Origin: Candidatus Frackibacter sp. WG13 | Lineage (GTDB): Bacteria; Bacillota; Halanaerobiia; Halobacteroidales; Acetohalobiaceae | Assembly: GCF_900114655.1 (NCBI RefSeq) | Contig: NZ_FOTT01000007.1 | Location: 1 to 64,000, forward strand | Length of the DNA stretch: 64,000 nt | Direction of reading: 5' to 3' | Part shown: piece by piece, positions 11,605 through 56,967 of the stretch | How positions within the stretch are numbered: the first letter of the stretch is position 1 | Layout of the letters: each line of letters starts with the position of its first letter | Program-made: the position numbers and the translations under genes | Notes under the pieces: model-generated | Seen by the model: only the letters and a program-made list of their open reading frames with translations | Told to the model about the DNA's origin: nothing | The model's database searches: none

Positions 11605-12111
11605 TTGAAAAAGAAGATTTTAATTTTAACTGTACTAGCTTTTGTATTATTACTAAGTAGTAATGTACTAGCAGCAGGTACACCAACAATCCCTAAGTCG
11701 CATCCCGTCTTTAAAGACAGCATGGATGCCACAAAATGTGCAGATTGTCACAAAGTTCCAGAAGAAATGAATACTAAGGACGGTGCATTCTGTAACCAAT
11801 GTCACCAGTTCGGCCCTGCACACAAGACAGGACCTAAGCCTGCTCACCAGGTAGAGCTTGACTGGAAGGTAAAGGACTGTGAAAATTGTCACCGTGCTCA
11901 TACGGGACCTAATCCGACTCACCAGATTGCTACTGACACTAAAAATGCTGATTTATGTGTTAAGTGTCACGTACCTGGTAACAGACCATCTAGTGAATTA
12001 GCAACAGCATTTTGTGCTAGATGCCATAACTTAGGTGACCCTAAGCAACATATTAGCCTTAAGGGTAAGAAGGCTAATGTCTGTGTAAGATGTCATAAAA
12101 GAGAAGACTAA
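11605..12111 (+). CDS. Exported hexaheme cytochrome c
   Basis: 168 residues. A signal peptide (KKK, hydrophobic core, cleavage near ANVLAAG around residue 23) directs export. Six CxxCH heme-binding motifs begin at about residues 45, 63, 92, 118, 137 and 160, filling the small mature protein; extra His residues (HKTGPKPAH, PTHQ) could be distal ligands. The start is TTG at 11605 with a strong GGGGGTG site 6 nt before it. The gene has no partner in its transcript. A GEMM-like RNA is encoded on the opposite strand just beyond the shared terminator. Probable role: periplasmic or surface electron carrier for the octaheme/barrel conduit at 14758-17596; this is inference from proximity. Confidence 0.92.
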   Translation: MKKKILILTVLAFVLLLSSNVLAAGTPTIPKSHPVFKDSMDATKCADCHKVPEEMNTKDGAFCNQCHQFGPAHKTGPKPAHQVELDWKVKDCENCHRAHTGPNPTHQIATDTKNADLCVKCHVPGNRPSSELATAFCARCHNLGDPKQHISLKGKKANVCVRCHKRED

Positions 12112-12458: not shown

Positions 12459-14033
12459 CTAAGCCTTCTTACTTTTACCTTCGCTTTCACTACCTGGAGG
12501 CGTAATTCCCAATCTCTTTGCTGAATGATCACGTCCCATAAAGAAGTTAAGCCAAGAAGCAGTATGATGAAAATCCCAGTTAACCGGTGGAATCTGATAT
12601 TCTTGTAACTGCTTTTCTTCACCATATGCTTTTAATCTATCATAGACTCGTACATATAGACATTTCTTCTCATTAGGATATACCTCGCAATAACCATCTC
12701 TACTACCGCCACAAGCTCCGTTACGCTGATTTTTAGGGCATTGTGACATTGGACAGATATATGCTAAGTCGAATAATGCACAATCTCCACACTCTTGACA
12801 ATCATTAGAAACAGTTTTAATAACTCGTTCCATAAATTCAAATGGTTTTTCTAGTGAACTATCGTCAACAGATTTACATAGATACTGCATCGGCTTAAAG
12901 AACGGACTATCTGGTTCAAATAGAGCATGATGCATAACTCTAAATGTTCTATTCATTAAACCCTTGCTCGGTTTATGAGTTCTAGCAGCTGGCTGTTTTG
13001 TATTTAAGCCAGTTTCCTCGTCCTTTTCGAAGTAATAAAATCCGTCTTCCATTGGAAATTCAAATTCATGAATATAATCTTGCCAGTTAGGTGCTAGCTC
13101 TTCACCTTTATCTACAATAAACTCTACATCTTCAATCCCCATACCGTGTCCACCTAAGTGAACTCCAGCATAGCCCATACCTTTCATGTAAGCATACATC
13201 TTAGCTGCCCTCATTAAACGAGCATGCTTACCTTTATCATCAGCTTCTTTTTCTTCAGCCAATTTATCGACTAACTTATCAGTTACTACACAACCAGGAA
13301 TACGATTAGCGTTCATTGCTCTACTTGCGCCATAAGATAATACATAAACGTTACCAATAACCGGAATATCCCAATCATTCATTTCAATAAATTGAATTAA
13401 TTCATGAAACTTACGAGCATCGTATCCTAACTGAGGAATAATAAATTTAGCTCCTGCTTCTATCTTCTTCTTCAGCTTATAGTACTGAACCATCTGTTCA
13501 GATTCTAATTGCTTAAATGGTGAAACTGCTGCTCCTGGGAAGAAGTTAGTCTCTTGTAACTCAACACTTCTACCAAAAGCATCCTTATACTTTAATCCAT
13601 CATTCAAATCCGTAACCATTTCTAAAACTTGAGTAGGGTCCATGTCATATACAGGTCTTGAACGACTATCATATCCCCCCACTGGATAGTCTCCGGTCAT
13701 AACCAAAATATTATTAACTTCTTCCCTTTCTAGAGAATACAAAAAACTCTCCATCTGGTTACGGTTTTTGTCCTTACAAGTAAAATGCACTAAAGCTGGA
13801 ATTCCAATTTCTTCAGCCTTCATACCTAAGTATTCAGCTGAAATCGCTGGATTCCCTCCAGGATTATCAGTAATAGTTATCCCATCAACTTTGTCACTTT
13901 CTGCTGCCTGCTCTGCTCCTTCAAATATAAATTCTTGATTTGCTTCTCGTGCCCCTCGTCCAGGTACTAGCTCCCACGTTACAGTAAATTCATCCTTGTT
14001 AAGAATAGACTCCTTAAGCTTATTCTGTCCCAT
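12459..14033 (-). CDS. Methylenetetrahydrofolate reductase with C-terminal MetV-like Zn/Fe-S domain
   Basis: 524 residues. Residues of about 1-300 resemble the MetF TIM barrel (VTWELVPGRG, DGITITDNPGG, NILVMTGDYP, IPQLGYDA). The C-terminal quarter holds the Cys-rich MetV-like domain: CQECGDC, ICPMSQCPKNQRNGACGG and a further Cys in DGYCEVYP and KKCLY. MetF reduces methylene-THF to methyl-THF. In anaerobes MetV partners MetF in the methyl branch of the Wood-Ljungdahl pathway or methyl-group supply; here both parts lie in one chain. It stands alone with its own terminator. Electron donor and physiological direction cannot be read from sequence. Confidence 0.85.
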   Translation of the reverse strand: MGQNKLKESILNKDEFTVTWELVPGRGAREANQEFIFEGAEQAAESDKVDGITITDNPGGNPAISAEYLGMKAEEIGIPALVHFTCKDKNRNQMESFLYSLEREEVNNILVMTGDYPVGGYDSRSRPVYDMDPTQVLEMVTDLNDGLKYKDAFGRSVELQETNFFPGAAVSPFKQLESEQMVQYYKLKKKIEAGAKFIIPQLGYDARKFHELIQFIEMNDWDIPVIGNVYVLSYGASRAMNANRIPGCVVTDKLVDKLAEEKEADDKGKHARLMRAAKMYAYMKGMGYAGVHLGGHGMGIEDVEFIVDKGEELAPNWQDYIHEFEFPMEDGFYYFEKDEETGLNTKQPAARTHKPSKGLMNRTFRVMHHALFEPDSPFFKPMQYLCKSVDDSSLEKPFEFMERVIKTVSNDCQECGDCALFDLAYICPMSQCPKNQRNGACGGSRDGYCEVYPNEKKCLYVRVYDRLKAYGEEKQLQEYQIPPVNWDFHHTASWLNFFMGRDHSAKRLGITPPGSESEGKSKKA

Positions 14034-14679: not shown

Positions 14680-14713
14680 AAAAAGAAGACTCCCGCTGGG
14701 AACGAGAGTCTTC
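14680..14713 (-). terminator. Terminator of the barrel/octaheme operon
   Basis: Minus-strand hairpin GAAGACTC/GAGTCTTC with an extended stem and a TTTTTT tail, about 45 nt after the barrel stop. Confidence 0.88.
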
Positions 14714-14757: not shown

Positions 14758-16797
14758 TTAAAATCCGCCTTCTAAGCCTAAAGTAATGATGTCTGCTGAA
14801 TAATCGTTAGCGTTTGTACCGTATAATGCTACATCACTTGGCGTCTCATCGTATTCAACACGACGTAAATCTAAAGTGACATCCAAGTTATCATAGATAG
14901 GTACAGCTTTAGTTAAGTTAAGACCAAAGTCTGTATACTCATTCTTGAAACTTTCATTATTAATATTAGATACAGATTCTTGACCTTCAATGTAATTACC
15001 ATAGAAATTGGCACTGAAGTCTTCACTTGCTTGATATGTTGCATTCACGTTATAAAGATCGTTATTGACTTTAGTAGTATATTCAAGGATTGTACCTGAA
15101 CCATCCGAGTTAAAACCATTTACTGCTTCGAAAGTTTGGTCAGAATAAGATAATCCCAAGTCTAAATTAACTACTGGCTGATAATTCACACTAAATGTTT
15201 GAATTTCATTTTCTCTTTTAGCATCCTCATAATGCCCTGCTGGATAACCAACATATGCTCCATAATGAGAGCCATCATCTTCTTCCTTTCTATATTTACT
15301 AGTTAATTTTAAATTGTCAAGTACTTCCCATTCAACTTCAAAATCAATTTCTTCATTATCAGCTATTTCTGTTCCTTCTTCTTCAATTGCTGTATCTTTA
15401 TAATCCAAGTCGAGTTTGACTGTCTCTATCGGATTATATAAAAAGCCTAGTTGATAACCATCTTCTGTAGTTTCTCCTGGTCCATGTGCTCCTTTATCTT
15501 TCTCTTTAGTATAAAGATAACCTACCTCTGCCTTTAGTTCATTATTTAAATAGTGTTCTCCTTTAACGTAATACTTATCTTTTTGATTATAGAAATTCTT
15601 ATTCAATTTCTTCCACTCACCTGAACCATCTCCTGGCCAAGCTGATATATGATCATCAGATGTGTCATTAGGGGTTCCATTATCAAAATAATAAGCAAAG
15701 TAATCAATGTTATTTTCTGTTTCTGTACTTTTATACCCACTGTGTAAATAAGTATCCTTATTAATTAATAACGTAGTGTCCATACTGCCTATGAAACTAT
15801 CTGAATTTGTATTACCATAAGTAGTCTTTCTTTCTTGAACTGTTTGTGTAGTATCCACTAAATTACCATTATTATCATATGCATTGTGACTATAAGCATC
15901 AATATATCCTGCTACAGAGAATGCTCCATCTCCTCGAGCATCTTTCAAACTTAATGTTACATCAAAACGATCATTAAATATCTTATGAACTTTTAACTGA
16001 TCAATTCCTCGGTCTAAACTTCTTGTTTCGTGATCTTGATACTGCCCATCTTTATCTCCTATATTATCTGTTCCCAATGCTTCCGCCGGTTCCTGTAATA
16101 CACTACCAGTATAACTATCTTGAGTATGAGCTAAATAAAAATCATATCCAGCATAACTAAACTCAGTACCTACAGTTGCATCTTGACTCGTTTCATTAAT
16201 TGGCGTATTCATTAAAAATTCAGCATGAGTTTCATATAAATCTTTTGTTAATACTGATATGCCTTCTCTATCTAACTTTCTTTTAGAAATAAAGAATTTA
16301 GGTAACCCTTCTGGAGTAATTGTCAAATGCATTGAGTCTTGTGTTCTAGTAAAATCATAAGTATGGTGGTCAGCATCAGCACCATTTTCATAGACATAAT
16401 CTCTTTCACTACGTTTAACTCCAAAATTGTAAAGACCATACTCTTTTAATTTCAATTCATAAGTAGGCGTTGGATCTCCTACATCTCCTAGACTGAAACG
16501 AGCTAAATCTAAATATCTATCAGCTTTATCAGTTGTTGGAACAAAAGTAGCATCTAAATTTAATAGACGTAAACCATCATCTAAATTAATGTCTGAATTA
16601 TAAACTCCTTTATTTCCATCAACACTGACTGACCGCAAACCTAATTTATAATCTACCGCTTCCAGCTTAAGTGCTGAAGTATCCAGTTTAGCGTTTGGCG
16701 TCCCTGCCTTCATCACATTAATATCTTTAGCATGTACAGGAACTACTAAAATACTTAAAACCAATATTAAAGTCAATGAACATTTTATTTTCTTCAT
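14758..16797 (-). CDS. Outer-membrane beta-barrel, MtrB/PioB-like porin of an electron conduit
   Basis: 679 residues with a signal peptide (MKKIK, hydrophobic core, cleavage near VHAKD, residue 24). The mature part is a long series of alternating polar/aromatic strands with acidic loops, and the chain ends in ...LGLEGGF, the C-terminal Phe expected of an outer-membrane barrel. Length matches MtrB/PioB-type porins (about 650-720). It follows an octaheme cytochrome gene by 28 nt in one transcript, the arrangement of MtrAB, PioAB and DmsEF systems in which the barrel holds the cytochrome across the outer membrane. The CxxC seen near the N-terminus of Shewanella MtrB is absent, so family assignment rests on context, size and barrel pattern. 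Confidence 0.7.
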   Translation of the reverse strand: MKKIKCSLTLILVLSILVVPVHAKDINVMKAGTPNAKLDTSALKLEAVDYKLGLRSVSVDGNKGVYNSDINLDDGLRLLNLDATFVPTTDKADRYLDLARFSLGDVGDPTPTYELKLKEYGLYNFGVKRSERDYVYENGADADHHTYDFTRTQDSMHLTITPEGLPKFFISKRKLDREGISVLTKDLYETHAEFLMNTPINETSQDATVGTEFSYAGYDFYLAHTQDSYTGSVLQEPAEALGTDNIGDKDGQYQDHETRSLDRGIDQLKVHKIFNDRFDVTLSLKDARGDGAFSVAGYIDAYSHNAYDNNGNLVDTTQTVQERKTTYGNTNSDSFIGSMDTTLLINKDTYLHSGYKSTETENNIDYFAYYFDNGTPNDTSDDHISAWPGDGSGEWKKLNKNFYNQKDKYYVKGEHYLNNELKAEVGYLYTKEKDKGAHGPGETTEDGYQLGFLYNPIETVKLDLDYKDTAIEEEGTEIADNEEIDFEVEWEVLDNLKLTSKYRKEEDDGSHYGAYVGYPAGHYEDAKRENEIQTFSVNYQPVVNLDLGLSYSDQTFEAVNGFNSDGSGTILEYTTKVNNDLYNVNATYQASEDFSANFYGNYIEGQESVSNINNESFKNEYTDFGLNLTKAVPIYDNLDVTLDLRRVEYDETPSDVALYGTNANDYSADIITLGLEGGF

Positions 16798-16825
16798 TAC
16801 TTAACTCCTCCTTCCTATTTTCAAT

Positions 16826-17596
16826 TTATTCTTCTAGCATCATGAAATCTTCATTAGAACCATGAATAGTTCCGTGACAATTTGTACAGTTAGCAAAATC
16901 AGTAGTGAAAGCTGCATTACTATCTACGGCAGGATTAGCATCTAAATAATAATAATGCCAGCTTTTTACTTCGCCGTGACAACTTAAACATAACGTGTCA
17001 GTTTTTTGATACTTTAACATAAATCGATTCTGACTACCGTGTGGCGTATGACAACTTGCACAACCCTCTTCAGCTACTACAGAACTATGTTGATTTACAA
17101 ATGGACCTTCTTTTTCAGCATGACAACTCACACAAGTTTCATTTGGAATGTCATTAGCTCTTCCAGCTAGTGGAGTATGCTTCTTTAATGACGCATTTAC
17201 GTCACCACCTGGACCTCCGTGTGGAGTGTGACAGCTTGAGCAAGTCATTTCACCACTCTCTAAGTTATGACTATTTCTCTGAGCAAATTTCAACTTCACA
17301 TCCTCGTGACAACTATAACATAACTCTGGCTCCTCCATCTTTAATGTAGCCTTGTTAGATTGAGTTGTCTTCTTGTCATGAGATTCGTGACAATCCATAC
17401 AATTCACATCATTTAAACTGTGCTGTGAACGTTTAAATTGGAATTGAGTCTTTACCTTACCGTGGCAGGATAGACAAGCTTCTGAAGCTTTTGCCTGAGC
17501 TTCTACATCTGCCGGCATCGCAACTACTGCTGCTAATGCCAATACTAAAACAAAACTAAAACTTAACAACAGATTAACTTTTTTAGTACTTTTCAT
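16826..17596 (-). CDS. Periplasmic octaheme cytochrome c, MtrA/DmsE-like
   Basis: 256 residues. Signal peptide with cleavage near VEAQA (about residue 34). Eight CxxCH motifs start at about residues 41, 66, 93, 119, 155, 179, 203 and 237. CxxCHTPHG repeats and paired distal His residues (SQHS, NSHN, NQHS, IHGS) are typical of the MtrA/DmsE/PioA family. Classical members carry ten hemes, so this is a shortened octaheme version. It is the first gene of a two-gene operon with the barrel and has a good AGGAGG site before its ATG. Two inverted repeats of a Crp/Fnr type lie about 320-370 bp upstream. Likely role: moving electrons through the barrel to an outside acceptor. Confidence 0.9.
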   Translation of the reverse strand: MKSTKKVNLLLSFSFVLVLALAAVVAMPADVEAQAKASEACLSCHGKVKTQFQFKRSQHSLNDVNCMDCHESHDKKTTQSNKATLKMEEPELCYSCHEDVKLKFAQRNSHNLESGEMTCSSCHTPHGGPGGDVNASLKKHTPLAGRANDIPNETCVSCHAEKEGPFVNQHSSVVAEEGCASCHTPHGSQNRFMLKYQKTDTLCLSCHGEVKSWHYYYLDANPAVDSNAAFTTDFANCTNCHGTIHGSNEDFMMLEE

Positions 17597-18199: not shown

Positions 18200-18868
18200 C
18201 TATTTTCGTAAATAATTAGCTGCTTTTTCAATATTTTCTCTAGTTGCCACTAGAAAGACTTTATTATTACTATTAATTCGCTTATTCCCACGTGGAATGA
18301 TCAATTCATCTACTTCTTGGTCAAAAATCCCTGCTATTACACACTTTTCAGGAAATCCTTTGCTATTTACTATCTCTGAAACTGTCAACCCTGAACATTT
18401 TGCTTTTTCTGGAATAGTAACAATCGAAATCTCTGCCTTACCATCTTCTAATGAAATAACCTTTTGAATCTCTGGTTGCTCAATATCCACTACAAATTTA
18501 TCGACCATCATCTCCATTGCGCCAGCAATATTAGTTGCTCCAGCCATCTTATAAGCACTTTCATACTCTGGCTCTCTCATCCTTACTAATATTCGTTCTA
18601 ACCCATAGTTCTTAGCTAATAATGAAAAAGCTAAATTATCAGCATCATTACGCATTACCCCCACAGCTACATCACATTTTTCAATTCCAGCCTCTCTTAA
18701 AACATCTATCTGGGTTGCATTACCACAAATACTAATTGCCCCATATTGAGAATAGATTCGCTCACAAATCTCGCGGTCTACATCTATAACTACTACATCA
18801 TGATTAGCTGCCAATCTTTTAGTTAGATTACGACCAACTATTCCACCACCAGCGATTATAATATACAT
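18200..18868 (-). CDS. trkA: Trk/Ktr potassium transport regulatory subunit (RCK protein)
   Basis: 222 residues: one RCK_N domain (NAD-binding GGGIVGRNL at residues 7-15, VVVIDVD, then CGNAT) and one RCK_C domain (about residues 140-220). It is the peripheral gating subunit for TrkH. The single N+C arrangement is the KtrA/CglK form rather than the doubled E. coli TrkA. It lies 315 bp downstream of trkH on the same strand. Potassium uptake is central to salt-in osmoadaptation, which suits a halophile. Confidence 0.93.
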   Translation of the reverse strand: MYIIIAGGGIVGRNLTKRLAANHDVVVIDVDREICERIYSQYGAISICGNATQIDVLREAGIEKCDVAVGVMRNDADNLAFSLLAKNYGLERILVRMREPEYESAYKMAGATNIAGAMEMMVDKFVVDIEQPEIQKVISLEDGKAEISIVTIPEKAKCSGLTVSEIVNSKGFPEKCVIAGIFDQEVDELIIPRGNKRINSNNKVFLVATRENIEKAANYLRK

Positions 18869-22571: not shown

Positions 22572-23273
22572 TTAATTATATTGTAATTTTCGCAATTCTT
22601 CTTTCATTTCCTTAACTTGATTCTTTAACACTTCTACTTTAACTCTTCTTAATAATAAATAGAAGTAGATAAAAGTAAAAGCAGCAATACTAACTAATAG
22701 AGTCTGAACCATAGTAGGTGCTAAATTCATACCGCCACCTTCTATAACTTGAGGATGAATTGTTCTCCACCATCTAATAGACATAAAAACGATAGGCACA
22801 TCTACAAAACCAACTATCCCAAAGATAGCTGCAAACCGTGCTTTCTTTTCACTTTCATCTGCTGAAGCTCTAAGTATAATGTAAGCAATATATATAAACC
22901 ATAAAATTAAAGTAGTAGTCAACCGCGGATCCCAAGTCCACCAAGCATTCCAGATAGGTCTTGCCCAAATTGGACCAGTAATCAAAACGATAGTAGTAAA
23001 TGCTACCCCAATCTCTGCCGAAGCCAAAGCAATATTATCCCAGAATGTACTACGCTTCTTAAGATAGATGATACTACCGACAAAGACTACAAAGAAAGCA
23101 AAAAAAGCAATCCAGGCTGCTGCTACATGAAAGTAAAATAGCCTCTGAATATGTCCCATAACTCTTTCAGTTGGTGCATATTCAAAAACCATATAAAGAG
23201 CTACCGAAGTAACTAAAAAGGCTAACCAACCTAGAATATTGCTATATCTATTATCTTTATCAAATGTCTCCAA
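22572..23273 (-). CDS. ccmC: Heme exporter/handling protein CcmC
   Basis: 233 residues, six membrane helices. The Trp-rich WWD-type motif is present (AWWTWDPRLT near residue 117), with outward-facing His residues before (FYFHVAAAW) and after it (RTIHPQV). CcmC loads heme onto CcmE outside the inner membrane. A positively charged helical C-terminal tail follows the last membrane segment. It is 3 nt downstream of ccmB, so translation is coupled. Confidence 0.95.
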   Translation of the reverse strand: METFDKDNRYSNILGWLAFLVTSVALYMVFEYAPTERVMGHIQRLFYFHVAAAWIAFFAFFVVFVGSIIYLKKRSTFWDNIALASAEIGVAFTTIVLITGPIWARPIWNAWWTWDPRLTTTLILWFIYIAYIILRASADESEKKARFAAIFGIVGFVDVPIVFMSIRWWRTIHPQVIEGGGMNLAPTMVQTLLVSIAAFTFIYFYLLLRRVKVEVLKNQVKEMKEELRKLQYN

Positions 23274-23276
23274 TAT

Positions 23277-23954
23277 CTACACCTCCAAAACAAAATCAAA
23301 TAACATAAACGGAACCGTGATAAAAATTAAATCATAAATACCTAATACCTTCAACCAGGGCAGAATCTCACTCATTTCCTCACCAATGAAGATAGCCCCT
23401 GTCGATTCAACTGCTCCAATTACTAAAGGAACAATTACCGGAAAGAGAATAATTGGCAATAATACTTCACTAGTCCTAGTATTAGCAGTTAATGCTGCTA
23501 AAAAAGTCCCAATAGCAACAAAACCAAAAGTTCCTAACAAGATTACTAAAATTAATTTCAATATAGAGCCACTAAAGGAATAATCAAATAAAATTATAAA
23601 GATTGGTAAAGAAATGGCTTCCATAATCAACATCAAAACTAAGTTAGTAATCACTTTTCCAAAATAGATTGCACTTCTATCAGCAGGACATAACATTAAA
23701 CCATGAATACTATTATTCTGTTTCTCAGCTACAAAAGAACGATTCAATCCTAGAATCCCGGCAAAGATAAAAGCAACCCATATGATTCCCGGAAACACTT
23801 CTTTTAAAGTCTCATCCGTAGGATCAAAAGCAAAACTAAAGATTACTATTACTAAGAAAGCAAAAATTAACATTGAACTTAACATTTCTTTTGTTCGAAA
23901 TTCTGATTTCAAATCTTTCCAGACTAATGCTTTAATCTGCTTAAAGAAAGTCAT
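23277..23954 (-). CDS. ccmB: Heme ABC transporter permease CcmB
   Basis: 225 residues, six predicted helices. Family features: the amphipathic N-terminus (FKQIKALVWKDLKSEFRTKE), WVAFIFAGILGLNRSF and ERxNxSIHGLMLCP-like EKQNNSIHGLMLCPADRS. It forms the CcmA2B2 transporter that, with CcmC and CcmD, releases holo-CcmE. It begins 3 nt after ccmA ends and runs into ccmC. Confidence 0.95.
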   Translation of the reverse strand: MTFFKQIKALVWKDLKSEFRTKEMLSSMLIFAFLVIVIFSFAFDPTDETLKEVFPGIIWVAFIFAGILGLNRSFVAEKQNNSIHGLMLCPADRSAIYFGKVITNLVLMLIMEAISLPIFIILFDYSFSGSILKLILVILLGTFGFVAIGTFLAALTANTRTSEVLLPIILFPVIVPLVIGAVESTGAIFIGEEMSEILPWLKVLGIYDLIFITVPFMLFDFVLEV

Positions 23955-23957
23955 CTG

Positions 23958-24680
23958 CTACTCCCCTAACAATTCTTTATATTTCTCTTGTAATTCTAAT
24001 AAATTAAAATCATTACTTACCCCTTCAAACCTGACTCTACCATTAACTAAGATTAAAAAGCGATCACTTAAATTTAATCCTTGTTGAAAATTATGAGTAA
24101 TCATTACTATAGTTCTTTGAGTAGTATTAAGTCCATTAATTACTCTATTTAACATTTCGATAGCATGCTGGTCTAATCCTGTATATGGTTCATCTAATAA
24201 TAAAATTTCTGGAAAATGTAAGATAGCCCGCGCAATAGATAACCTTTGCTTCATTCCCCTAGAGAAAGTACGTACTAAATCATGAAGACAGAAGTTTAAA
24301 CCTACCTCATCTATCACATCAAAAATTCGATCTTTTAAATTATTCACTCCATACATTTCACCATAGAACTTTAAATTTTCGTAAGCCGTTAAATCACCAT
24401 ATAAAAAAGTATGATGGGAAATCACCCCAATATCTTTCCTTAAATGAATTGTATTCTCTACGACTGATTCGCCTGCAATCTTTAATTCACCTGTAGTCAA
24501 GTCAGTTACCGTAGAGAGCAATTTAAGGAGAGTAGTCTTCCCGGCTCCATTTGGTCCAAAAATACTTAACACTTCTCCTTGATTTAAAGAAAAATTGATA
24601 TCACTCAATATATTCTTCTTTCCTATATCTTTCTTTAATTCTTTAACTGCTAATAGTGGCTGATTCCCCATTGCTTTCAC
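23958..24680 (-). CDS. ccmA: Heme ABC transporter ATPase CcmA
   Basis: 240 residues. Walker A GPNGAGKTT near residue 39, Q-loop region VISHHTFLYGDLT, ABC signature FSRGMKQRLS, Walker B ILLLDEPYTGLD and switch His in MITHNF. It supplies ATP hydrolysis for holo-CcmE release. It lies between the small CcmI-like gene and ccmB with short spacers. Confidence 0.95.
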   Translation of the reverse strand: MKAMGNQPLLAVKELKKDIGKKNILSDINFSLNQGEVLSIFGPNGAGKTTLLKLLSTVTDLTTGELKIAGESVVENTIHLRKDIGVISHHTFLYGDLTAYENLKFYGEMYGVNNLKDRIFDVIDEVGLNFCLHDLVRTFSRGMKQRLSIARAILHFPEILLLDEPYTGLDQHAIEMLNRVINGLNTTQRTIVMITHNFQQGLNLSDRFLILVNGRVRFEGVSNDFNLLELQEKYKELLGE

Positions 24681-24692
24681 TCCTTAAGCTTT

Positions 24693-24971
24693 TTAACTAG
24701 CTTCTTCTTCCTTCATAACTTCTACAGCTAACTTCTGTAATCTACCTTTTAGTTCTTTATAATCATCTTCTGATAACTTATTCATCTGATAATCAAGCTC
24801 TATCTCACCTAACTCAGAAAAGATAGCTTCTTTTCTTAACTCTATATCATCTTCTAGAGTATTCACTCGTTCCCTATAATCAACTATATCTATTTCTTCT
24901 TCCGTTACAATCGGGTAACCTATTAAGTAAAGTACCATCGCTCCCAAAACGAGACCGGTTATTAAGCTCAT
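24693..24971 (-). CDS. Small CcmI-like membrane protein
   Basis: 92 residues. One N-terminal helix (about 1-19) and a coiled-coil cytoplasmic tail with the pattern ELDYQMNKLSEDDYKELKGRL, which resembles the first helix and coiled-coil of CcmI/CycH. The long TPR domain of proteobacterial CcmI, which binds apocytochromes, is absent. Position between ccmH and ccmA supports a role in heme ligation. The call is moderate because such short versions are mostly coiled coil. Confidence 0.65.
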   Translation of the reverse strand: MSLITGLVLGAMVLYLIGYPIVTEEEIDIVDYRERVNTLEDDIELRKEAIFSELGEIELDYQMNKLSEDDYKELKGRLQKLAVEVMKEEEAS

Positions 24972-24994
24972 AAGAACCCCTCCTTAAATCTATA

Positions 24995-25462
24995 TTATAG
25001 GTATTTTTTAAACTCTTCATCTAATTGTTCCTTGTATTCCTCTTCCTCTTCTTTGCTTAAATGTTCCGTTGTCTTATTACTAGTTCCAAACTCATAAGCA
25101 GCAGACCACTGACGAGCGAAGTAATAGATAACTCCTCCCCCAACAATAATGGCTAAGAAAGGCATAATCCAAGCAATCAGATTAAAGCCTTTTTTAGTTG
25201 GAGCTGCATAGACCTGTTCTCCATACTTTTCAATAAAGGAAGTAATTATCTCTTTTTTAGTCATACCTTTATCTACCATACCCGCAATAGTATTCCTCAT
25301 TTCATTGGCAGCATCAGTCCGACAGACTGAGACTAACATCTCACAACCTACCATCTTAATCTCTTTTGCTACATCTTTGACTGTTAAAGCATAGCTAACT
25401 GCCGAAGTAAAAACCACCATAATACTAACTAAAACTAAAATCGTAGCAATTTTCTTACGCAT
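24995..25462 (-). CDS. ccmH: CcmH-type apocytochrome thioreductase, unusual Cys spacing
   Basis: 155 residues: signal peptide (cleavage near SYALT), CcmH domain, one membrane helix (about 93-113) and an acidic cytoplasmic tail. Conserved CcmH features follow the Cys region: MRNTIAGMVDKGMTKKEII, FIEKYGEQVYAAPTKKGFN. In place of the usual LRCxxC the protein has GC40-EMLVSV-C47, a CX6C pair. Several anaerobes have CxCxxxxLxxC-type CcmH, and this looks like such a form lacking one Cys. It would keep the heme-binding thiols of apocytochromes reduced with CcmF. Its start overlaps the ccmF stop by 8 nt. Confidence 0.85.
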   Translation of the reverse strand: MRKKIATILVLVSIMVVFTSAVSYALTVKDVAKEIKMVGCEMLVSVCRTDAANEMRNTIAGMVDKGMTKKEIITSFIEKYGEQVYAAPTKKGFNLIAWIMPFLAIIVGGGVIYYFARQWSAAYEFGTSNKTTEHLSKEEEEEYKEQLDEEFKKYL

Positions 25463-27437
25463 CTTTATGCATCTCCTTTAGCAGTTCAATAGAACGCTGT
25501 CGGTCATCTGGCCAAACAGCAATTAAAGTACCAACAATCAAAATATTGATACCAAAGAATAACCAACTAACTAGAGGATTAATAACTACTTTTAAGATCG
25601 CCTGTGCTCCACTATCTGACCATCCTGCTAAAATTATATATAAATCTTCTTCAATTCCACTTTTAAAATCAACTTCAGTAACAGGTTCTTCCCAAGTCTT
25701 AAAGTACTGTTTAGCCGGTCTTAATGTGGTATATGGTTTTCCATTCTTCTTGACACTTAAGTTTGCATAAACAGTATCCTTATTAGGGTCCTTTTGCACC
25801 TTTAAACCATGGTAAGTAATATCATACTCTTCAAAATGAATGACTTCTCCTTGATTAACAGTTACCTCTCTTTCTAATTTATAAGCACTCGAACCCGTAA
25901 TTCCTATAATCATAATAACAACAGCTAAGTGAACTATATAACCACCATATCGACGACGATTACGTGAAACTAATCTAAATAGAGCCGTCATTAGTCCTTC
26001 ATCTGTCATCTTCATTCGTGCCTTAACACCACGATAGAACTCCATAATAATAGTTAAAAATACAAAGAATGAACTTGTTAAAGCTAATAATGGATAAATT
26101 TCATTAACTCCCATAGTTATATAAATCCCTGCTGCAAAAATGATACTTAAAACTAAAGGAGCTAAGAAGTTTTTCCTAAAGTTCTGCCATGAAGACTTCC
26201 GCCAAGCAATCAATGGACAGATTCCAGTTAAGATTACTAATAAGATACCAATTGGAACGTTTACCTGATTAAAGAATGGAGGTCCTACTGTAACCTTAAC
26301 ACCTCTTACTGCCTCAGAGATAATCGGATAGATAGTTCCCCAAAAGACAGCAAATGCTGAACCAACTAATAATAAGTTATTAAATAAGAAACTACTCTCT
26401 TTAGATAAAGTAGATTCAAATTCATTTTCACTCTCAAGGCTCTTACGTCGAATAGCAAATAAGTTAAGTGACCCTGCTAATATAACTCCCATAAAGATTA
26501 GGAAGTATAATCCAATCTGAGACTCGCCAAACGCGTGAACCGAAGATAAGATTCCACTTCGAGTTAAGAATGTACCAAATAGAGTTAAAGCGAAAGTGAT
26601 GATAATTAATAATACATTCCAAATCTTTAACATACCTTTCCGTTCCTGGATCATCACTGAATGAAAGAAGGCAGTACTAGTTAACCATGGCAATAAGGAA
26701 GCATTTTCCACCGGGTCCCAAGCCCAGTAACCTCCCCAACCTAACTCTACATAAGCCCACTGTCCACCAGAAACTATACCGATACTTAAGAATAACCAAG
26801 CAATGAGCGTCCATCTTCTTGTTAACTTAATCCAGGTAGCACCTGTCTTTTTTAAATATAAAGCCGCCATCGCAAATGCAAATGGTACTGCAAAACCTAC
26901 ATAACCAAGATAGGTCGTTACCGGATGAATTACCATTCCGACATTCTGTAACATTGGATTTAACCCTTGTCCATCTTGAGGTGTAAATCCTAACTGAGCA
27001 AAAGGACTCGCTTCAAAATTTAATACAAGTGCAAAGAAAAGACTAATAAACATCAATACTGCACTAGCATAAGGCCGCATCTGTGCACCTTCTGGTTTCT
27101 TAGAAGATGCAATAATAGCTGCATAAATAGATAAAACCCAATACCATAATAATAATGAACCACTATTCCCCGCCCAAAATGCTGATATCTTATAAGCTAA
27201 AGGCAGAGCAAAATTAGTGTAATGAGCGACATACTTAATACTAAAATCACTAGTAACTAATGCATACAATAAAGCAGCAGAAGCTACAGTAGTCAAAATA
27301 GCATTAGCAAAGACTCCATTCTCGGCACTCTTTAATAACCTCTTATTCTTCTGCTTTAAACCTAAAATATAAGCTACTATTGAATAAATAGTAACAACTA
27401 AAGATATTAATAACGCTATCGAACCAACTTCAGCCAT
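25455..27437 (-). CDS. ccmF: Heme lyase CcmF
   Basis: 660 residues, about fifteen membrane helices. The periplasmic WWD domain reads WGGYWAWDPVENASLLPWL (near residue 235), flanked by His residues: HPVTTYLGYVG before it, AFFHSVMIQ and SSVHAFGES after it. A further His, in YGGYIVHLAVVIM, sits near the C-terminal third. CcmF joins heme from CcmE to CxxCH motifs. Length matches the family. It lies between ccmE and ccmH. Confidence 0.97.
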   Translation of the reverse strand: MAEVGSIALLISLVVTIYSIVAYILGLKQKNKRLLKSAENGVFANAILTTVASAALLYALVTSDFSIKYVAHYTNFALPLAYKISAFWAGNSGSLLLWYWVLSIYAAIIASSKKPEGAQMRPYASAVLMFISLFFALVLNFEASPFAQLGFTPQDGQGLNPMLQNVGMVIHPVTTYLGYVGFAVPFAFAMAALYLKKTGATWIKLTRRWTLIAWLFLSIGIVSGGQWAYVELGWGGYWAWDPVENASLLPWLTSTAFFHSVMIQERKGMLKIWNVLLIIITFALTLFGTFLTRSGILSSVHAFGESQIGLYFLIFMGVILAGSLNLFAIRRKSLESENEFESTLSKESSFLFNNLLLVGSAFAVFWGTIYPIISEAVRGVKVTVGPPFFNQVNVPIGILLVILTGICPLIAWRKSSWQNFRKNFLAPLVLSIIFAAGIYITMGVNEIYPLLALTSSFFVFLTIIMEFYRGVKARMKMTDEGLMTALFRLVSRNRRRYGGYIVHLAVVIMIIGITGSSAYKLEREVTVNQGEVIHFEEYDITYHGLKVQKDPNKDTVYANLSVKKNGKPYTTLRPAKQYFKTWEEPVTEVDFKSGIEEDLYIILAGWSDSGAQAILKVVINPLVSWLFFGINILIVGTLIAVWPDDRQRSIELLKEMHKDA

Positions 27438-52418: not shown

Positions 52419-52703
52419 CTATTCTGTAACGTGACAACTTACACAGTTAGGACGTTCTGGATGAGAAGTTACGGTTGCTCCCATAACTCCCTTTTCGTGA
52501 CAAGCTAAACAGTCTTGTCTATCTTCTATACTATGAGGTACAGTGGGTGGATACCCTTCGTTAGGGATAGCTTCTGCTTCTACTTTAAAATCTTTCTTCA
52601 ACGCTTTCTTTACTCTTGGGTCATCTGGGTTACAACCAGTTAATACTAATAAACCTAATACAAGAACCAATAGTCCTATGATTAACTTCTTATTATTTAT
52701 CAT
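52419..52703 (-). CDS. Mini-NapB: diheme c-type lipoprotein
   Basis: 94 residues from the ATG at 52703 (GGAGG 8 nt upstream; an earlier GTG is less likely). A hydrophobic leader ends in the lipobox LTGC, so the mature protein should be lipid-anchored. The remaining about 70 residues hold two CxxCH motifs (CLACH, CVSCH). They also hold NapB-type distal ligand contexts (PPTVPHS before the first, VTSHPERP before the second). NapB passes electrons to NapA; usual NapB is soluble and about 130-150 residues. This one is the NapB core alone on a lipid anchor. It directly follows napA (18 nt). Confidence 0.85.
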   Translation of the reverse strand: MINNKKLIIGLLVLVLGLLVLTGCNPDDPRVKKALKKDFKVEAEAIPNEGYPPTVPHSIEDRQDCLACHEKGVMGATVTSHPERPNCVSCHVTE

Positions 52704-52720
52704 CTTATTCACCTCCGGAG

Positions 52721-54973
52721 TTATGCCTTTTCGACTTTAACCGCACAAATTTTGAATTCAGGTTCTTTAGATTGTGGATCAAACGCATCTTTAGTTACTA
52801 AGTTAATTAAATGTTTGCTATCGAAGAATGGCACAAATAACATCTTTGGTTGTGGAACACCACGTCCACCAACCTTAGCCTTAATCTTTAATTCCCCACG
52901 ACGAGAAATTAATTTAACCATATCCCCACTCTTAATACCTAAACGTCTTGCATCATCCTTATGAATCTCGACATAAGCCTCCGGAACTGCTTGCTTCAAT
53001 TCAGGGACTTGCATAGTCATCGTTGCTGTATGCCAATGCTCTACAACTCGTCCAGTTGATAAGATGAATGGATACTTCTTATCAGCAGACTCTGCAGGTC
53101 CAGTATATTCCCGGGCATAGATAACTGCCTTTCCATCTGGTTTACCGTAGAACTCAATTCCTTCTTTTACATATGGATCATCATTTGCTACATAACGTCG
53201 GGTCGTTTCTTTACCATCTACAACTGGCCAGGTTAGCCCTCTTGTATGACGATAAGCATCATATGGTGCTAAGTCTTTACCAGTACCGAGAGTACACTTT
53301 CTATATTCTTCAAAGATCTCTTTCTCTGGATGGTCTTTATATGGGAATAGCTCACCATATCCTAATCTTCTAGCTACTTCTAAGAACTGCCATAGGTCTG
53401 GCTTAGCTTCACCTGGTGCATCAACTGCTTTTTCAAAATGTTGTGTTCTTCGTTCGGTATTACCAAAAAACCCTTCTTTCTCTACCCACATGGCTGATGG
53501 TAGTATTACATCAGCATACTTGGTGGTCTCTGTTGGATATACATCGGAAACTACTAAGAATACATCTTCTAATCCTTGGCGATACTTATTAAAGTTAGGT
53601 AGTGAATGGGCTGGGTTGGTCGTTGTTACCCATAATGCATTGATATCACCTTTATTAATCGCCTCAAACATAGCCATTGTATGATAACTCGGCTTAGGAG
53701 GAATCTTATCTACATCAACACCCCAGTGTTTAGCCATCTCTTCTCTATGTTCTTTCTTCATAACTACTCTATGAGCTGGTAACTTATGTGTAAATGTACC
53801 TACCTCTCTTGCCGTACCACAAGCACTTGGCTGTCCTGTTAAAGAGAGCGGGGAAGAGCCTGGTCGACAGATTTTACCGGTTAATAGGTGTAAGTTATGA
53901 ATGGCTTGGTTAATAGGTACTCCCTGTATCTGCTGATTGACTCCCATTGTCCATAGACTTAAACTCTCTCGCTTAGGGTCAGCAAACATCTTAGCCGCTT
54001 TTACAATATCATCTGCATCTAAACCAGTGATTTTAGCTGCCTTTTGTGGTGTATACTCTGCTAGAAACTCCTTAAATTCATTTAAAGTAATATCTCTTCC
54101 ATCCTGTTTTAGATTAGTATGGCTATTAATAAAGTCTTCATCGATTAAATCTTCTTCAATGATTACATAAGCCATGGCATTTAATAAGGCAGTATCAGTA
54201 CCTGGCTTAAATGCTAAATCTAAATCTGATATCTTATTAGTTCTAGTCTCACGAGGGTCAGCTACGATCACCTTTACATCTGAACCTTTTCGCTTTCGCT
54301 GTACGACTCGCGAATAAAGAATTGGGTGGCATTCAGCCATGTTCGCACCAATAATGAAGAAAAGATCGGTCTCTTCAAAATCAGCATAGGCTCCCATAGG
54401 TTCGTCTTTACCATAAACAGATAAGTAGCCGACTACAGCACTAGCCATGCATAATCTAGCGTTACATTCCAAGTTATTAGTACCGATAGCCCCTTTCATT
54501 AACTTACTCAATACATAACCTTCCTGAACAGTAGATTGTCCAGAAGAAAAGACAGCTACAGAGTCCGGACCATATGTATCTATAGACTCTCTATATTTTT
54601 TAGCTACTAAATCCAATGCCGTCTCCCAATCTGTTTCAACCATCTTTCCATTCTTGCGAATCATTGGCTTCTTTAATCTATCTTCTGTAGCATTCATTAA
54701 TTTTCCTAAAGAATAACCTTTGATACATAAGAACCCTTTATTTACAGGATTCTTCTTATCCCCTTTTACTGCAACTACTTTACCATCTTTAACGCCAACT
54801 AAGACTCCACACCCTGTTCCACAGAAACGACAAGGCGCTTTAGTCCACTTATCAACTTCACTACTTGCCTTCGCAACAGAAAGTAATGACTTCTCCTTAG
54901 GATTAACTCCTGCTGCTGTCATTACTGCCGCTGCTGCTGATGCTTTTAAAAAACTCCGTCGTGTAAGTTTCAT
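52721..54973 (-). CDS. napA: Periplasmic nitrate reductase-type molybdoenzyme NapA
   Basis: 750 residues. A Tat signal (RRSFLK at residues 5-10, AAAAAVM core) directs export after folding. 4Fe-4S ligands Cys48, 51, 55 and 83 (CRFCGTGCG, FLCIKGY). The molybdenum ligand is the Cys in NARLCMASAVVGY (about 175), a NapA hallmark followed by DEPMGAY and GANMAECHPI. C-terminal MopB_CT domain from about 640. It reduces nitrate to nitrite in the periplasm with Mo-bisMGD; relatives can act on selenate, so substrate is not certain. GGAGGGA precedes the ATG. It lies between napD and the diheme lipoprotein; no napC or napH occurs here. The Mo-ligand codon is TGC, not TGA. Confidence 0.9.
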   Translation of the reverse strand: MKLTRRSFLKASAAAAVMTAAGVNPKEKSLLSVAKASSEVDKWTKAPCRFCGTGCGVLVGVKDGKVVAVKGDKKNPVNKGFLCIKGYSLGKLMNATEDRLKKPMIRKNGKMVETDWETALDLVAKKYRESIDTYGPDSVAVFSSGQSTVQEGYVLSKLMKGAIGTNNLECNARLCMASAVVGYLSVYGKDEPMGAYADFEETDLFFIIGANMAECHPILYSRVVQRKRKGSDVKVIVADPRETRTNKISDLDLAFKPGTDTALLNAMAYVIIEEDLIDEDFINSHTNLKQDGRDITLNEFKEFLAEYTPQKAAKITGLDADDIVKAAKMFADPKRESLSLWTMGVNQQIQGVPINQAIHNLHLLTGKICRPGSSPLSLTGQPSACGTAREVGTFTHKLPAHRVVMKKEHREEMAKHWGVDVDKIPPKPSYHTMAMFEAINKGDINALWVTTTNPAHSLPNFNKYRQGLEDVFLVVSDVYPTETTKYADVILPSAMWVEKEGFFGNTERRTQHFEKAVDAPGEAKPDLWQFLEVARRLGYGELFPYKDHPEKEIFEEYRKCTLGTGKDLAPYDAYRHTRGLTWPVVDGKETTRRYVANDDPYVKEGIEFYGKPDGKAVIYAREYTGPAESADKKYPFILSTGRVVEHWHTATMTMQVPELKQAVPEAYVEIHKDDARRLGIKSGDMVKLISRRGELKIKAKVGGRGVPQPKMLFVPFFDSKHLINLVTKDAFDPQSKEPEFKICAVKVEKA

Positions 54974-55019
54974 TAACTTCCCTCCTGAATAAATATTGAT
55001 AGTTCTAGCTCTTATATAA

Positions 55020-55289
55020 CTAATTTAAGAGACTCATTTCATCATTATTCTTAAAGACTTCTTCTTCATAATTTATATATGAAGGAAATACACCAATAAC
55101 CTCATCTAAATCTTCTATCTCTTTTATCTTATCTTCTAATATATTAGTATTTTGTGCTTCAATAACAACTACTACTTTCCCAGTCTCCTCAGTCTCATAA
55201 AGAGTTAAAGCTTCTTTGTTCTTAAGTAAGTTTAAGACTCTTTTAACTAAATTCTCTTCATATTCAACTAAAGCTCCAGCTATTAACAC
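55020..55289 (-). CDS. napD: NapD-like Tat proofreading chaperone
   Basis: 89 residues. Ferredoxin-like fold pattern: MLIAGALVEY first strand, VVVVIEAQ and VIGVFPSYINYEEE. NapD binds the NapA Tat signal until cofactor loading is complete. GTG start at 55289 with a GGAGGGGG site 4-5 nt upstream. First gene of the nap transcript, 47 nt before napA. Confidence 0.88.
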   Translation of the reverse strand: MLIAGALVEYEENLVKRVLNLLKNKEALTLYETEETGKVVVVIEAQNTNILEDKIKEIEDLDEVIGVFPSYINYEEEVFKNNDEMSLLN

Positions 55290-55387
55290 TCAACCCCCTC
55301 CCTTCTAAAATTATTCTGCTAATATATGTGATAAAAAGAACTAAATTAAGTAAAATAAAACTGACTAACTAATTCAATACTCCTTTT

Positions 55388-55403
55388 CATGACTTATATC
55401 ATA
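55388..55403. promoter_or_regulatory. Second Crp/Fnr-type site in nap promoter
   Basis: CATGACTTATATCATA fits the same half-site pattern. It is centred at about +12 from the predicted nap start, a position more suited to repression or to another promoter. Confidence 0.5.
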
Positions 55404-55413
55404 TTTTAACTTT

Positions 55414-55419
55414 ATTATA
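55414..55419 (-). promoter_or_regulatory. napD: -10 box of nap operon
   Basis: TATAAT on the minus strand without a recognisable -35, as expected for an activator-dependent promoter. It gives a start near 55407 and a leader of about 118 nt. Confidence 0.6.
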
Positions 55420-55440
55420 TTATTTTCTTAGAAAAGTTCA

Positions 55441-55456
55441 TATGATATTTATCATA
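55441..55456. promoter_or_regulatory. Crp/Fnr-type activator site of nap operon
   Basis: TATGATATTTATCATA, close to a perfect 16-bp inverted repeat, is centred at 55448.5. That is exactly -41.5 if TATAAT at 55414-55419 is the -10, the classic class II activation position. Same pattern as 17915-17930 and 17948-17963. Confidence 0.75.
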
Positions 55457-55471
55457 ATTTTATCTAAAAAC

Positions 55472-55505
55472 AAAAAAACTCTACCATGAGTAGCCATGAT
55501 AGAGT
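55472..55505 (-). terminator. Terminator of the crp/fnr gene
   Basis: Minus-strand hairpin ACTCTATCATG/CATGGTAGAGT followed by TTTTTTTG, about 50 nt after the regulator stop. Confidence 0.88.
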
Positions 55506-55556
55506 CATTCAAAGAACTTCATATTTTGAGAAACTTACATAATTTTGTCTTTTTAA

Positions 55557-56249
55557 CTAACCTCCAGTCGTAACAGCTTCTAAACCAGTAGCATCTTTAA
55601 TAATTAAATGTTTGCCTTGACCAGCTATTAATCCTTCATCTTTAAAATCACTGATAACTCTAATAGCTGTCTCCATAGAAACACCTAACATCTCTGCCAT
55701 CTCAGCACGTGATAGACTCAAACTCAATTCCATTCCATCTATTAAAGCTTTATCGTCAGCTGTAGCCAAAGAAATTAATAAATTAGCTACCTTCTCTCTA
55801 GCAGTTTTGGTACCTAATAAGAAAATTCTCTCATAGGCAGTACTAACTTCTTCAGTCAAAGTTGCAATGAACTTCTCTGTTAAAGAAGGATTAATAGCAA
55901 ATAATTCATTTAATCTAGTTTTATTTAAATAACAGACTACTGAATCCTCCATAGCTTCAGCTGTATGGCCATAATTACTCTTCTTTCTTAAGGCACAAAG
56001 CCCAACTATTTCTCCTGGATTTATCACTCTAAGAATCTGACCTTGTCCAGCCGAGGAATGTTTATATAGCTTTACTCTACCAGATTTAACAATATAACAA
56101 CCATGCATCTTTTCGTTTTGACGAAAGAGAACTTCACCTTTTTTCAACTCCTGGTCAACTAATAATTCTTCTACCTTGACTAACTCTTCTGGAGTTAGAT
56201 CTGCTAAAATACTATTCATTCTAACTGAACATTGTACACATCTTCTCAT
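55557..56249 (-). CDS. Crp/Fnr family transcription regulator
   Basis: 230 residues: cyclic-nucleotide-binding fold (about 15-125), a long dimer helix and a C-terminal HTH (about 179-201, SRAEMAEMLGVSMETAIRVISDF). Recognition-helix Glu193 and Arg197 match the residues that read TGA in Crp/Fnr sites. N-terminal Cys4 and Cys7 (CVQCSV) and Cys106 (SVVC) line up with three of the four Fnr cluster ligands; the position of the remaining Fnr Cys is Ser. The protein may therefore bind a cluster in an unusual way or sense something else. It lies beside nap and mobA and is the probable reader of the shared 16-bp sites. Confidence 0.9.
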   Translation of the reverse strand: MRRCVQCSVRMNSILADLTPEELVKVEELLVDQELKKGEVLFRQNEKMHGCYIVKSGRVKLYKHSSAGQGQILRVINPGEIVGLCALRKKSNYGHTAEAMEDSVVCYLNKTRLNELFAINPSLTEKFIATLTEEVSTAYERIFLLGTKTAREKVANLLISLATADDKALIDGMELSLSLSRAEMAEMLGVSMETAIRVISDFKDEGLIAGQGKHLIIKDATGLEAVTTGG

Positions 56250-56279
56250 CTTTAAGCCCCCCTGCCTTTATTTCTTCTT

Positions 56280-56870
56280 TTAAAAAGATTCATTTACAAT
56301 TCTAAGCGCGCGGTTATAATCTTCTCTAGTATTCACATTAAAAAAAGAATATAGATTAGGACTAAACTCTCTAATCTTTTCTTCCTCTATATATTGTACA
56401 TCTACTTTAGGCCAAAATTCCATAATTCGATATCTATTTTGCTTAATAACTTCTTCAATGCTAGGAAGACAGTCTTTACTATAGATAGCATGCAACGGTT
56501 CAAAATTATTACCAACCCTAGGCACTAATATATCTGAAGCAGAATGGTTAAGCATATACTCTATTAGTTCTAAGCTTAATAACGGCATATCGCAACCTAT
56601 AATTAAATTATATTTATCAGGACTTGCTTGTAATCCAGCATGCATTCCACTCAAAGGACCTTGATGAGTAAAGAAATCATCAACAACAACTTTAGCCCTA
56701 CATTCATTATATAATTCCTTATCTTTAGCAGCTATAATTACTTTTGAAAATATTTCATTTAACTTATCTACTATGTGAGCAATCATAGTCTTTTCTCCAA
56801 ATTCCATCAAAGGTTTATTAGCCCCCTTCATTCTAGAGCTTTTCCCTCCTGCTAATATTATAGCGGCCAT
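56280..56870 (-). CDS. mobA: Molybdenum cofactor guanylyltransferase
   Basis: About 196 residues from the ATG at 56870, which has GGAGGAG 6 nt upstream (a longer frame to 56918 has no site). N-terminal nucleotidyltransferase motif AAIILAGGKSSRMKGANKPLM, then VDDFFTHQGPLSGMHAGL and GCDMPLL. It adds GMP to molybdopterin for NapA-class enzymes. It precedes the Crp/Fnr gene. Confidence 0.95.
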   Translation of the reverse strand: MAAIILAGGKSSRMKGANKPLMEFGEKTMIAHIVDKLNEIFSKVIIAAKDKELYNECRAKVVVDDFFTHQGPLSGMHAGLQASPDKYNLIIGCDMPLLSLELIEYMLNHSASDILVPRVGNNFEPLHAIYSKDCLPSIEEVIKQNRYRIMEFWPKVDVQYIEEEKIREFSPNLYSFFNVNTREDYNRALRIVNESF

Positions 56871-56918
56871 TAATTTCTCCTCCTTATTAATTAAGAGAAT
56901 TTCATAATTAAACTCCAA

Positions 56919-56962
56919 GCATAATTAAGACGGACTCTTCAAGCGTCAGTCATTAATTATGC
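56919..56962 (-). other. Hairpin between apbE and mobA
   Basis: GCATAATTAA (56919-56928) pairs with TTAATTATGC (56953-56962). It sits just after the apbE stop but lacks a clear T run, so it may be a weak terminator or processing site. Confidence 0.4.
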
Positions 56963-56967
56963 AAGCC

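Follow-up and report, generated by a model that had tools for sequence, protein, structure and literature searches.

We analyzed a 64,000-nucleotide stretch of the genome of Candidatus Frackibacter sp. WG13 (here called the window), in which the gene for an exported multiheme cytochrome is followed by the gene for a barrel-type protein. The features at this locus, with coordinates and strand, are the following.

16826-17596, minus strand: exported octaheme c-type cytochrome of the DmsE/MtrA type, 256 aa (TIGR03508, PDB 6r2q_A, heme and histidine columns)
14758-16797, minus strand: predicted divergent MtrB-type outer-membrane barrel, 679 aa (hhalign, AF2 with an MtrB alignment, Foldseek)
14685-14713, minus strand: hairpin and T-run, likely terminator of the two-gene unit, with a 13-pair stem and then TTTTTT (consensus match only)
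11605-12111, plus strand: exported hexaheme cytochrome with six CxxCH motifs, probable periplasmic partner
12459-14033, minus strand: methylenetetrahydrofolate reductase (metF) with a DUF5981 C-terminus, conserved flank (Pfam MTHFR and DUF5981)
18200-18868, minus strand: TrkA-like gene, conserved on the opposite side of the insertion site (function from sequence only)
22572-27437, minus strand: cytochrome c maturation (Ccm, system I) genes, with CcmC at 22572-23273, CcmH at 24995-25462 and CcmF at 25455-27437 (Pfam/NCBIfam)

Both genes of the pair are on the minus strand, with the barrel gene downstream of the cytochrome gene and a gap of 28 bp between them. The hairpin (14713-14685) comes directly after the barrel gene, suggesting through its position and T-run that the two genes are probably carried on one transcript, and metF sits between the pair and the hexaheme gene at 11605-12111. 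An earlier note on this DNA had described an exported, MtrA/DmsE-like octaheme cytochrome and, next to it, a 679-residue barrel-type protein with a signal peptide and a C-terminal Phe. Both descriptions were borne out: the eight CxxCH motifs lie at 16826-17596, in a product matched by TIGR03508 (E value = 1.2e-52), and the open reading frame of the barrel was confirmed at 14758-16797. The order of cytochrome and then barrel was found in most of 80 homologous loci, and the pair occurs in the same order in a second genus (G002, a sister genus in the same family as the window genome, G000; G001, G003 and G004 are other family members). These results indicate that the adjacency of the two genes is not due to chance.

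The cytochrome is an MtrA homologue without hemes 1 and 2

The cytochrome begins with a Sec-type signal ending in VEA-QA, and its CxxCH motifs start at residues 41, 66, 93, 119, 155, 179, 203 and 237. For the search against the DmsE/MtrA families that the earlier note had proposed, the NCBIfam model TIGR03508 (DmsE) did match the protein (178.9 bits, model positions 65-257 of 258), although the score lies just under the curated cut-off of 192.2 bits and the first 64 model positions are missing. As a control, Photobacterium MtrA scored 322.4 bits with the same model. The best PDB sequence was 6r2q_A, the MtrA of the Shewanella baltica Mtr complex (E value = 1.3e-28); the molecule name displayed for it is wrong, and the entry is the Mtr complex.

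We compared heme and histidine columns across 83 sequences, including 81 relatives from many phyla. Heme sites 3 to 10 of MtrA were present in all 83, except that site 10 was missing from one, and sites 1 and 2, found in nearly all other aligned sequences, were missing from the window and G002 cytochromes. The cytochrome had been said to carry eight rather than ten hemes, unlike Shewanella MtrA, and the heme counts agree with this: ten in 78/80 homologues, nine in 2/80 and eight in the window and G002 proteins. Furthermore, eight distal histidines (59, 73, 110, 126, 170, 186, 214 and 245) were kept in 93 to 100% of the 83 sequences. Standing beside the CxxCH histidines, they match the need of eight bis-histidine hemes, and all eight hemes would be ligated in this way. 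On this sequence evidence, the window cytochrome is a clear DmsE/MtrA homologue that has kept hemes 3 to 10 and lost precisely hemes 1 and 2.

In the MtrCAB structure, the heme chain A1-A10 measures 80 Å, the membrane is about 40 Å thick and heme A1 reaches about 20 Å into the periplasm (PMC7198977). The octaheme chain keeps 7/9 of the heme steps of MtrA, which by simple proportion leaves roughly 60 Å, more than the thickness of the membrane. A cytochrome too short to cross had been named earlier as grounds for abandoning the assignment; since this length remains even with hemes 1 and 2 lost, the objection does not apply. What is missing is the end of the chain in the periplasm, at which soluble carriers come into contact with MtrA.

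Profile comparisons relate the barrel to MtrB

The barrel protein has a Sec-type signal ending in VHA-KD, its last residues are GGF, and it contains no CxxC. The search for MtrB/PioB homology that had been suggested for it gave a divided answer. None of the Pfam and NCBIfam models matched, the PF11854 threshold of 23 bits not being reached; the MtrBs of Ignavibacteria, Acidobacteria, Rokubacteria and Betaproteobacteria score 249 to 517 bits with PF11854. When profiles were compared by hhalign, the window and G002 barrels did match a profile of 73 MtrBs along most of the protein (Prob = 96.6%, E value = 6.6e-10, 521 columns). Controls in the same run gave 0.3% for the reversed query, 0.5% for the reversed target, 0.4% for two other barrel-like proteins of the window genome and 30% for an unrelated Halanaerobiales barrel-like protein. 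Against only 19 non-Shewanella MtrBs the probability was 82%, with the N-terminal third covered. A plain HMM scored 14.2 bits on the barrel, with a large bias correction, against at most 0.9 bits in 50 shuffles. Identity to known MtrBs is about 12 to 20%, and both ends of the barrel are MtrB-like in the alignment, e.g., the C-terminal ALYGTNANDYSADIITLGLEGGF.

Single-sequence AlphaFold prediction of the barrel was uninformative (pLDDT 28.8). AF2 with 18 MtrBs as the alignment gave a model with about 24 long strands (pLDDT 64, pTM 0.61), where a closed barrel large enough for the cytochrome would have about 26, and in this model 35% of residues fall below pLDDT 50; a 36-sequence alignment, its C-terminal half shifted relative to the HMM alignment, was not used for modeling. 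Foldseek ranked 6r2q_B (MtrB) first for the MSA-guided model (E value = 5.7e-16, TM 0.59-0.62), with TonB-type barrels as runners-up (1e-8, TM 0.31-0.46). Because MtrBs were themselves supplied as the alignment, the model is partly circular and serves as supporting evidence only. Taken over the profile comparisons, homology of the window barrel to MtrB is well supported despite the lack of a family-model match. The missing CxxC, which the earlier note had considered distinctive, is real but common in MtrB outside the Gammaproteobacteria: the motif occurs in the collected MtrBs of Shewanella, Ferrimonas, Photobacterium and Thioalkalivibrio and is absent from the examined MtrBs of Acidobacteria, Ignavibacteria, Rokubacteria and many Betaproteobacteria.

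The locus sits on a conserved backbone in two genera

The earlier attribution of the DNA to a diderm Firmicute is supported, as the genome clusters with Acetohalobium (Halanaerobiales) and has a gene for BamA (E value = 1.3e-97) adjoining a TamB-like gene, as expected in a diderm; the host would be a halophilic member of the family of Acetohalobium. The octaheme cytochrome was searched for in 59 genomes of the class and in a sample of 399 from the phylum, and was found only in the window genome and G002, between which the two proteins of the pair are 72% and 54% identical. No PF11854 match above the cut-off was found in the 399-genome phylum sample. A weak PF11854 match in G001, within a barrel-like open reading frame of 587 aa, was rejected as an MtrB, as this frame has an SLH-like start and lies away from any multiheme gene. 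Both carriers are rich in multiheme cytochromes, with 35 and 17 Paired_CXXCH matches in their genomes; the three other family members have 0. The earlier note had mentioned neither this large set in the window genome nor the hexaheme gene.

The trkA-like gene is syntenic in G000, G001, G002 and G003. In G001 and G003, which represent two other genera of the family, metF comes directly after it with less than 450 bp between them, and the conduit pair and the hexaheme gene are absent; in G000 and G002, the hexaheme gene lies on the far side of metF. The hexaheme gene is thus found with the pair in two genomes, and both are missing at the equivalent place in G001, G003 and G004, the last of which is also without trkA and ccm at this place. 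The ccm genes are kept in G000, G002 and G001. On this conserved backbone, the pair and the hexaheme gene are either both present or both absent; this points to a common function and speaks against contamination. Contamination or misassembly was rejected, since the locus lies in a backbone syntenic with four relatives.

We also scanned 84,980 species genomes with two peptide patterns. The 80 matches listed included Proteobacteria, Acidobacteria, Ignavibacteria, Bacteroidota, Gemmatimonadetes, Verrucomicrobia (Opitutaceae), Myxococcota and Rokubacteria, and none of these 80 was from Firmicutes. In the tree, the window pair lies on a long branch (3.77) outside all other sequences, which argues against recent transfer from any sampled donor; a recent origin from Shewanella or another such donor was rejected on this ground. 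The long branch reflects either early divergence or fast evolution, and the tree cannot tell which. A tentative and rather unlikely reading is that the pair is a separate, early-diverged MtrAB branch that diderm Firmicutes either retained or acquired very long ago, with the octaheme cytochrome as a minimal working trans-outer-membrane wire without a dedicated MtrC.

A proposed route for electrons and its alternatives

The earlier note had read the two genes as an MtrAB-type conduit, an assignment that appears to hold given the homology of the cytochrome, the profile match of the barrel and a gene order like that of other mtrAB loci. We consider it likely that this diderm, halophilic Firmicute carries in its outer membrane a minimal porin-cytochrome conduit of this type, formed by the pair, with a presumed outward route for electrons. 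The barrel, in the role of MtrB, would insert into the outer membrane through BamA, and the octaheme cytochrome, in the role of MtrA, would be threaded into it, so that a chain of bis-histidine hemes runs across the membrane of about 40 Å. Electrons from the quinone pool would enter via an NrfH-like complex or a membrane complex of cytochrome b and a multiheme cytochrome, the co-occurring hexaheme cytochrome would ferry them over the periplasm, and they would leave via the conduit to an extracellular acceptor or to a surface cytochrome encoded elsewhere. Complex formation, the outward direction, the partners and the acceptor are what we infer by analogy with known conduits. The locus suggests that this lineage may be able to breathe on, or draw electrons from, things outside the cell, and an iron reducer, Fuchsiella ferrireducens, is known within the family (PMC11683007).

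Candidates for the remaining parts are encoded in the window genome. Three NrfH/NapC-like hexaheme membrane cytochromes (L044:6713-8015 on contig C4 and L045:11390-11911 on C17) are candidates for quinol oxidation, and a heptaheme cytochrome is paired with a cytochrome b561 on contig C15. No MtrC/OmcA surface decaheme cytochrome adjoins the pair, and TIGR03507 nowhere exceeds its cut-off genome-wide. Two proteins are candidate surface cytochromes: one with 15 hemes on C10, which has an MtrC/MtrF-like domain match, and one with 14 hemes on C11; mtrC located apart from mtrAB is known in Desulfobacterota (PMC12133095).

Inward flow resembling that of PioAB/MtoAB, in which Fe(II), metallic iron, a partner cell or a cathode would supply electrons to the quinone pool or acetogenesis, is unlikely. 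MtrA, MtoA and PioA are not separated by function in trees (PMC8805035), the family includes acetogens such as Fuchsiella alkaliacetigena (PMC9387241), and metF is the next gene, all of which would fit this direction. However, metF occupies the same position in relatives that lack the conduit, so its adjacency reflects an inherited backbone, and no PioC/MtoD-type partner adjoins the pair.

An improbable alternative is a DmsEF-type conduit serving an extracellular molybdoenzyme (for DMSO, selenate, arsenate or similar) rather than minerals. DmsE is the best family for the cytochrome, and the window genome encodes six molybdopterin oxidoreductases, at least two with twin-arginine signals and one with a lipobox-like cysteine. 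The name DmsE does not decide the matter, as TIGR03508 also covers MtrA (see the Photobacterium control above), and no molybdoenzyme adjoins the pair.

A reading in which the barrel is a porin unrelated to MtrB, and the cytochrome encoded beside it by chance serves as a soluble, NrfB-like carrier in the periplasm, is very unlikely. The register of the barrel's C-terminal half varies between alignments, which, with the missing family match and the uninformative single-sequence fold, would speak for an unrelated porin; the hhalign match with its clean controls, the MtrB-like ends and the conserved pairing and order speak against it. Finally, the G002 barrel gene (L004:9945-12221) has an in-frame TGA at codon 176 next to an intact cytochrome gene, which may reflect a sequencing error, decay or something else, but a decaying, no longer working locus is most improbable given that the window barrel frame is open over its full length, the signal peptides are intact and the eight heme sites are kept in both genera.

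Comparison with known systems

The window pair shares with Shewanella MtrAB (MtrCAB, PDB 6R2Q) the gene order, the combination of an exported multiheme cytochrome with a barrel, heme positions 3 to 10 with their histidines and the profile match of the barrel; it differs in having eight hemes, a barrel of low identity that stays under the PF11854 threshold, no CxxC, no adjacent mtrC and a Firmicute host. Shewanella DmsEF (TIGR03508/PF11854) provides the cytochrome's best NCBIfam model, whereas the window pair has no DmsAB neighbor and scores below the model cut-off. MtoAB and PioAB are likewise two-gene conduits with no adjacent mtrC, but they are decaheme, Proteobacterial and accompanied by PioC or MtoD/CymA partners. 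The Mtr homologues of Acidobacteria, Ignavibacteria and Prolixibacteraceae (L105, L050, L089 and L047) are non-proteobacterial mtrAB pairs with CxxC-less barrels. Unlike the window pair, they are decaheme, their barrels are clearly recognized by PF11854 where scored, and they cluster together in the tree, apart from it. By score and heme count, the window pair lies outside the formal limits of the DmsE/MtrA and MtrB families; its homology to them is well supported, it would probably work as they do, and what is new is an octaheme, divergent variant of MtrAB.

The Mtr-type conduits described so far come from Proteobacteria and a small number of further Gram-negative phyla. One broad survey placed mtrCAB in three phyla, all in Gram-negative classes and with no Firmicutes (PMC8805035). 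That survey demanded an adjacent mtrC (PMC8805035), so a pair without mtrC would go uncounted. Moreover, as the barrel escapes Pfam, searches that require MtrB or MtrC will have missed such loci. In open-access titles and abstracts on Halanaerobiales and extracellular electron transfer, no such locus was described. If true, the presence of such a conduit in Halanaerobiales would add hypersaline anaerobes to the organisms with direct extracellular respiration, suggest a mechanism to be sought where Halobacteroidaceae reduce iron, and reveal which hemes of the MtrA chain a conduit can do without.

Other cytochrome and molybdoenzyme loci of the genome

Two related clusters, L037 (C10:5518-17106) and L039 (C11:33695-44426), encode 4- to 5-heme, 11-heme and 14- or 15-heme cytochromes together with NHL beta-propeller proteins and a barrel-like protein (652 or 550 aa). 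The two barrel-like proteins are 34% identical and have no Pfam match, and the two clusters possibly form a further type of outer-membrane conduit. Similar NHL/multiheme clusters occur in Desulfovibrio ferrophilus (DFE_0448-0451 and 0461-0465); these differ in kind from the MtrAB-like pair. Two further cytochromes with eight CxxCH motifs (L042:7336-8535 on C9 and L043:7149-8474 on C28) scored 82 to 86 bits with the hydrazine dehydrogenase family model, far under its cut-off. One molybdoenzyme (L139:613-3159 on C18) has a twin-arginine signal and a possible lipobox (GATGC) and may be a membrane- or surface-anchored protein. Within the window, a NapA-like molybdoenzyme is encoded at 52419-54973 on the minus strand (889 bits, cut-off 904). 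Its neighbors up to 57993 encode a 97-aa protein with two CxxCH motifs, a DmsB-like ferredoxin, MobA/MobB and an Fnr-type regulator, and the region 52419-57993 is probably a respiratory nitrate reductase locus.
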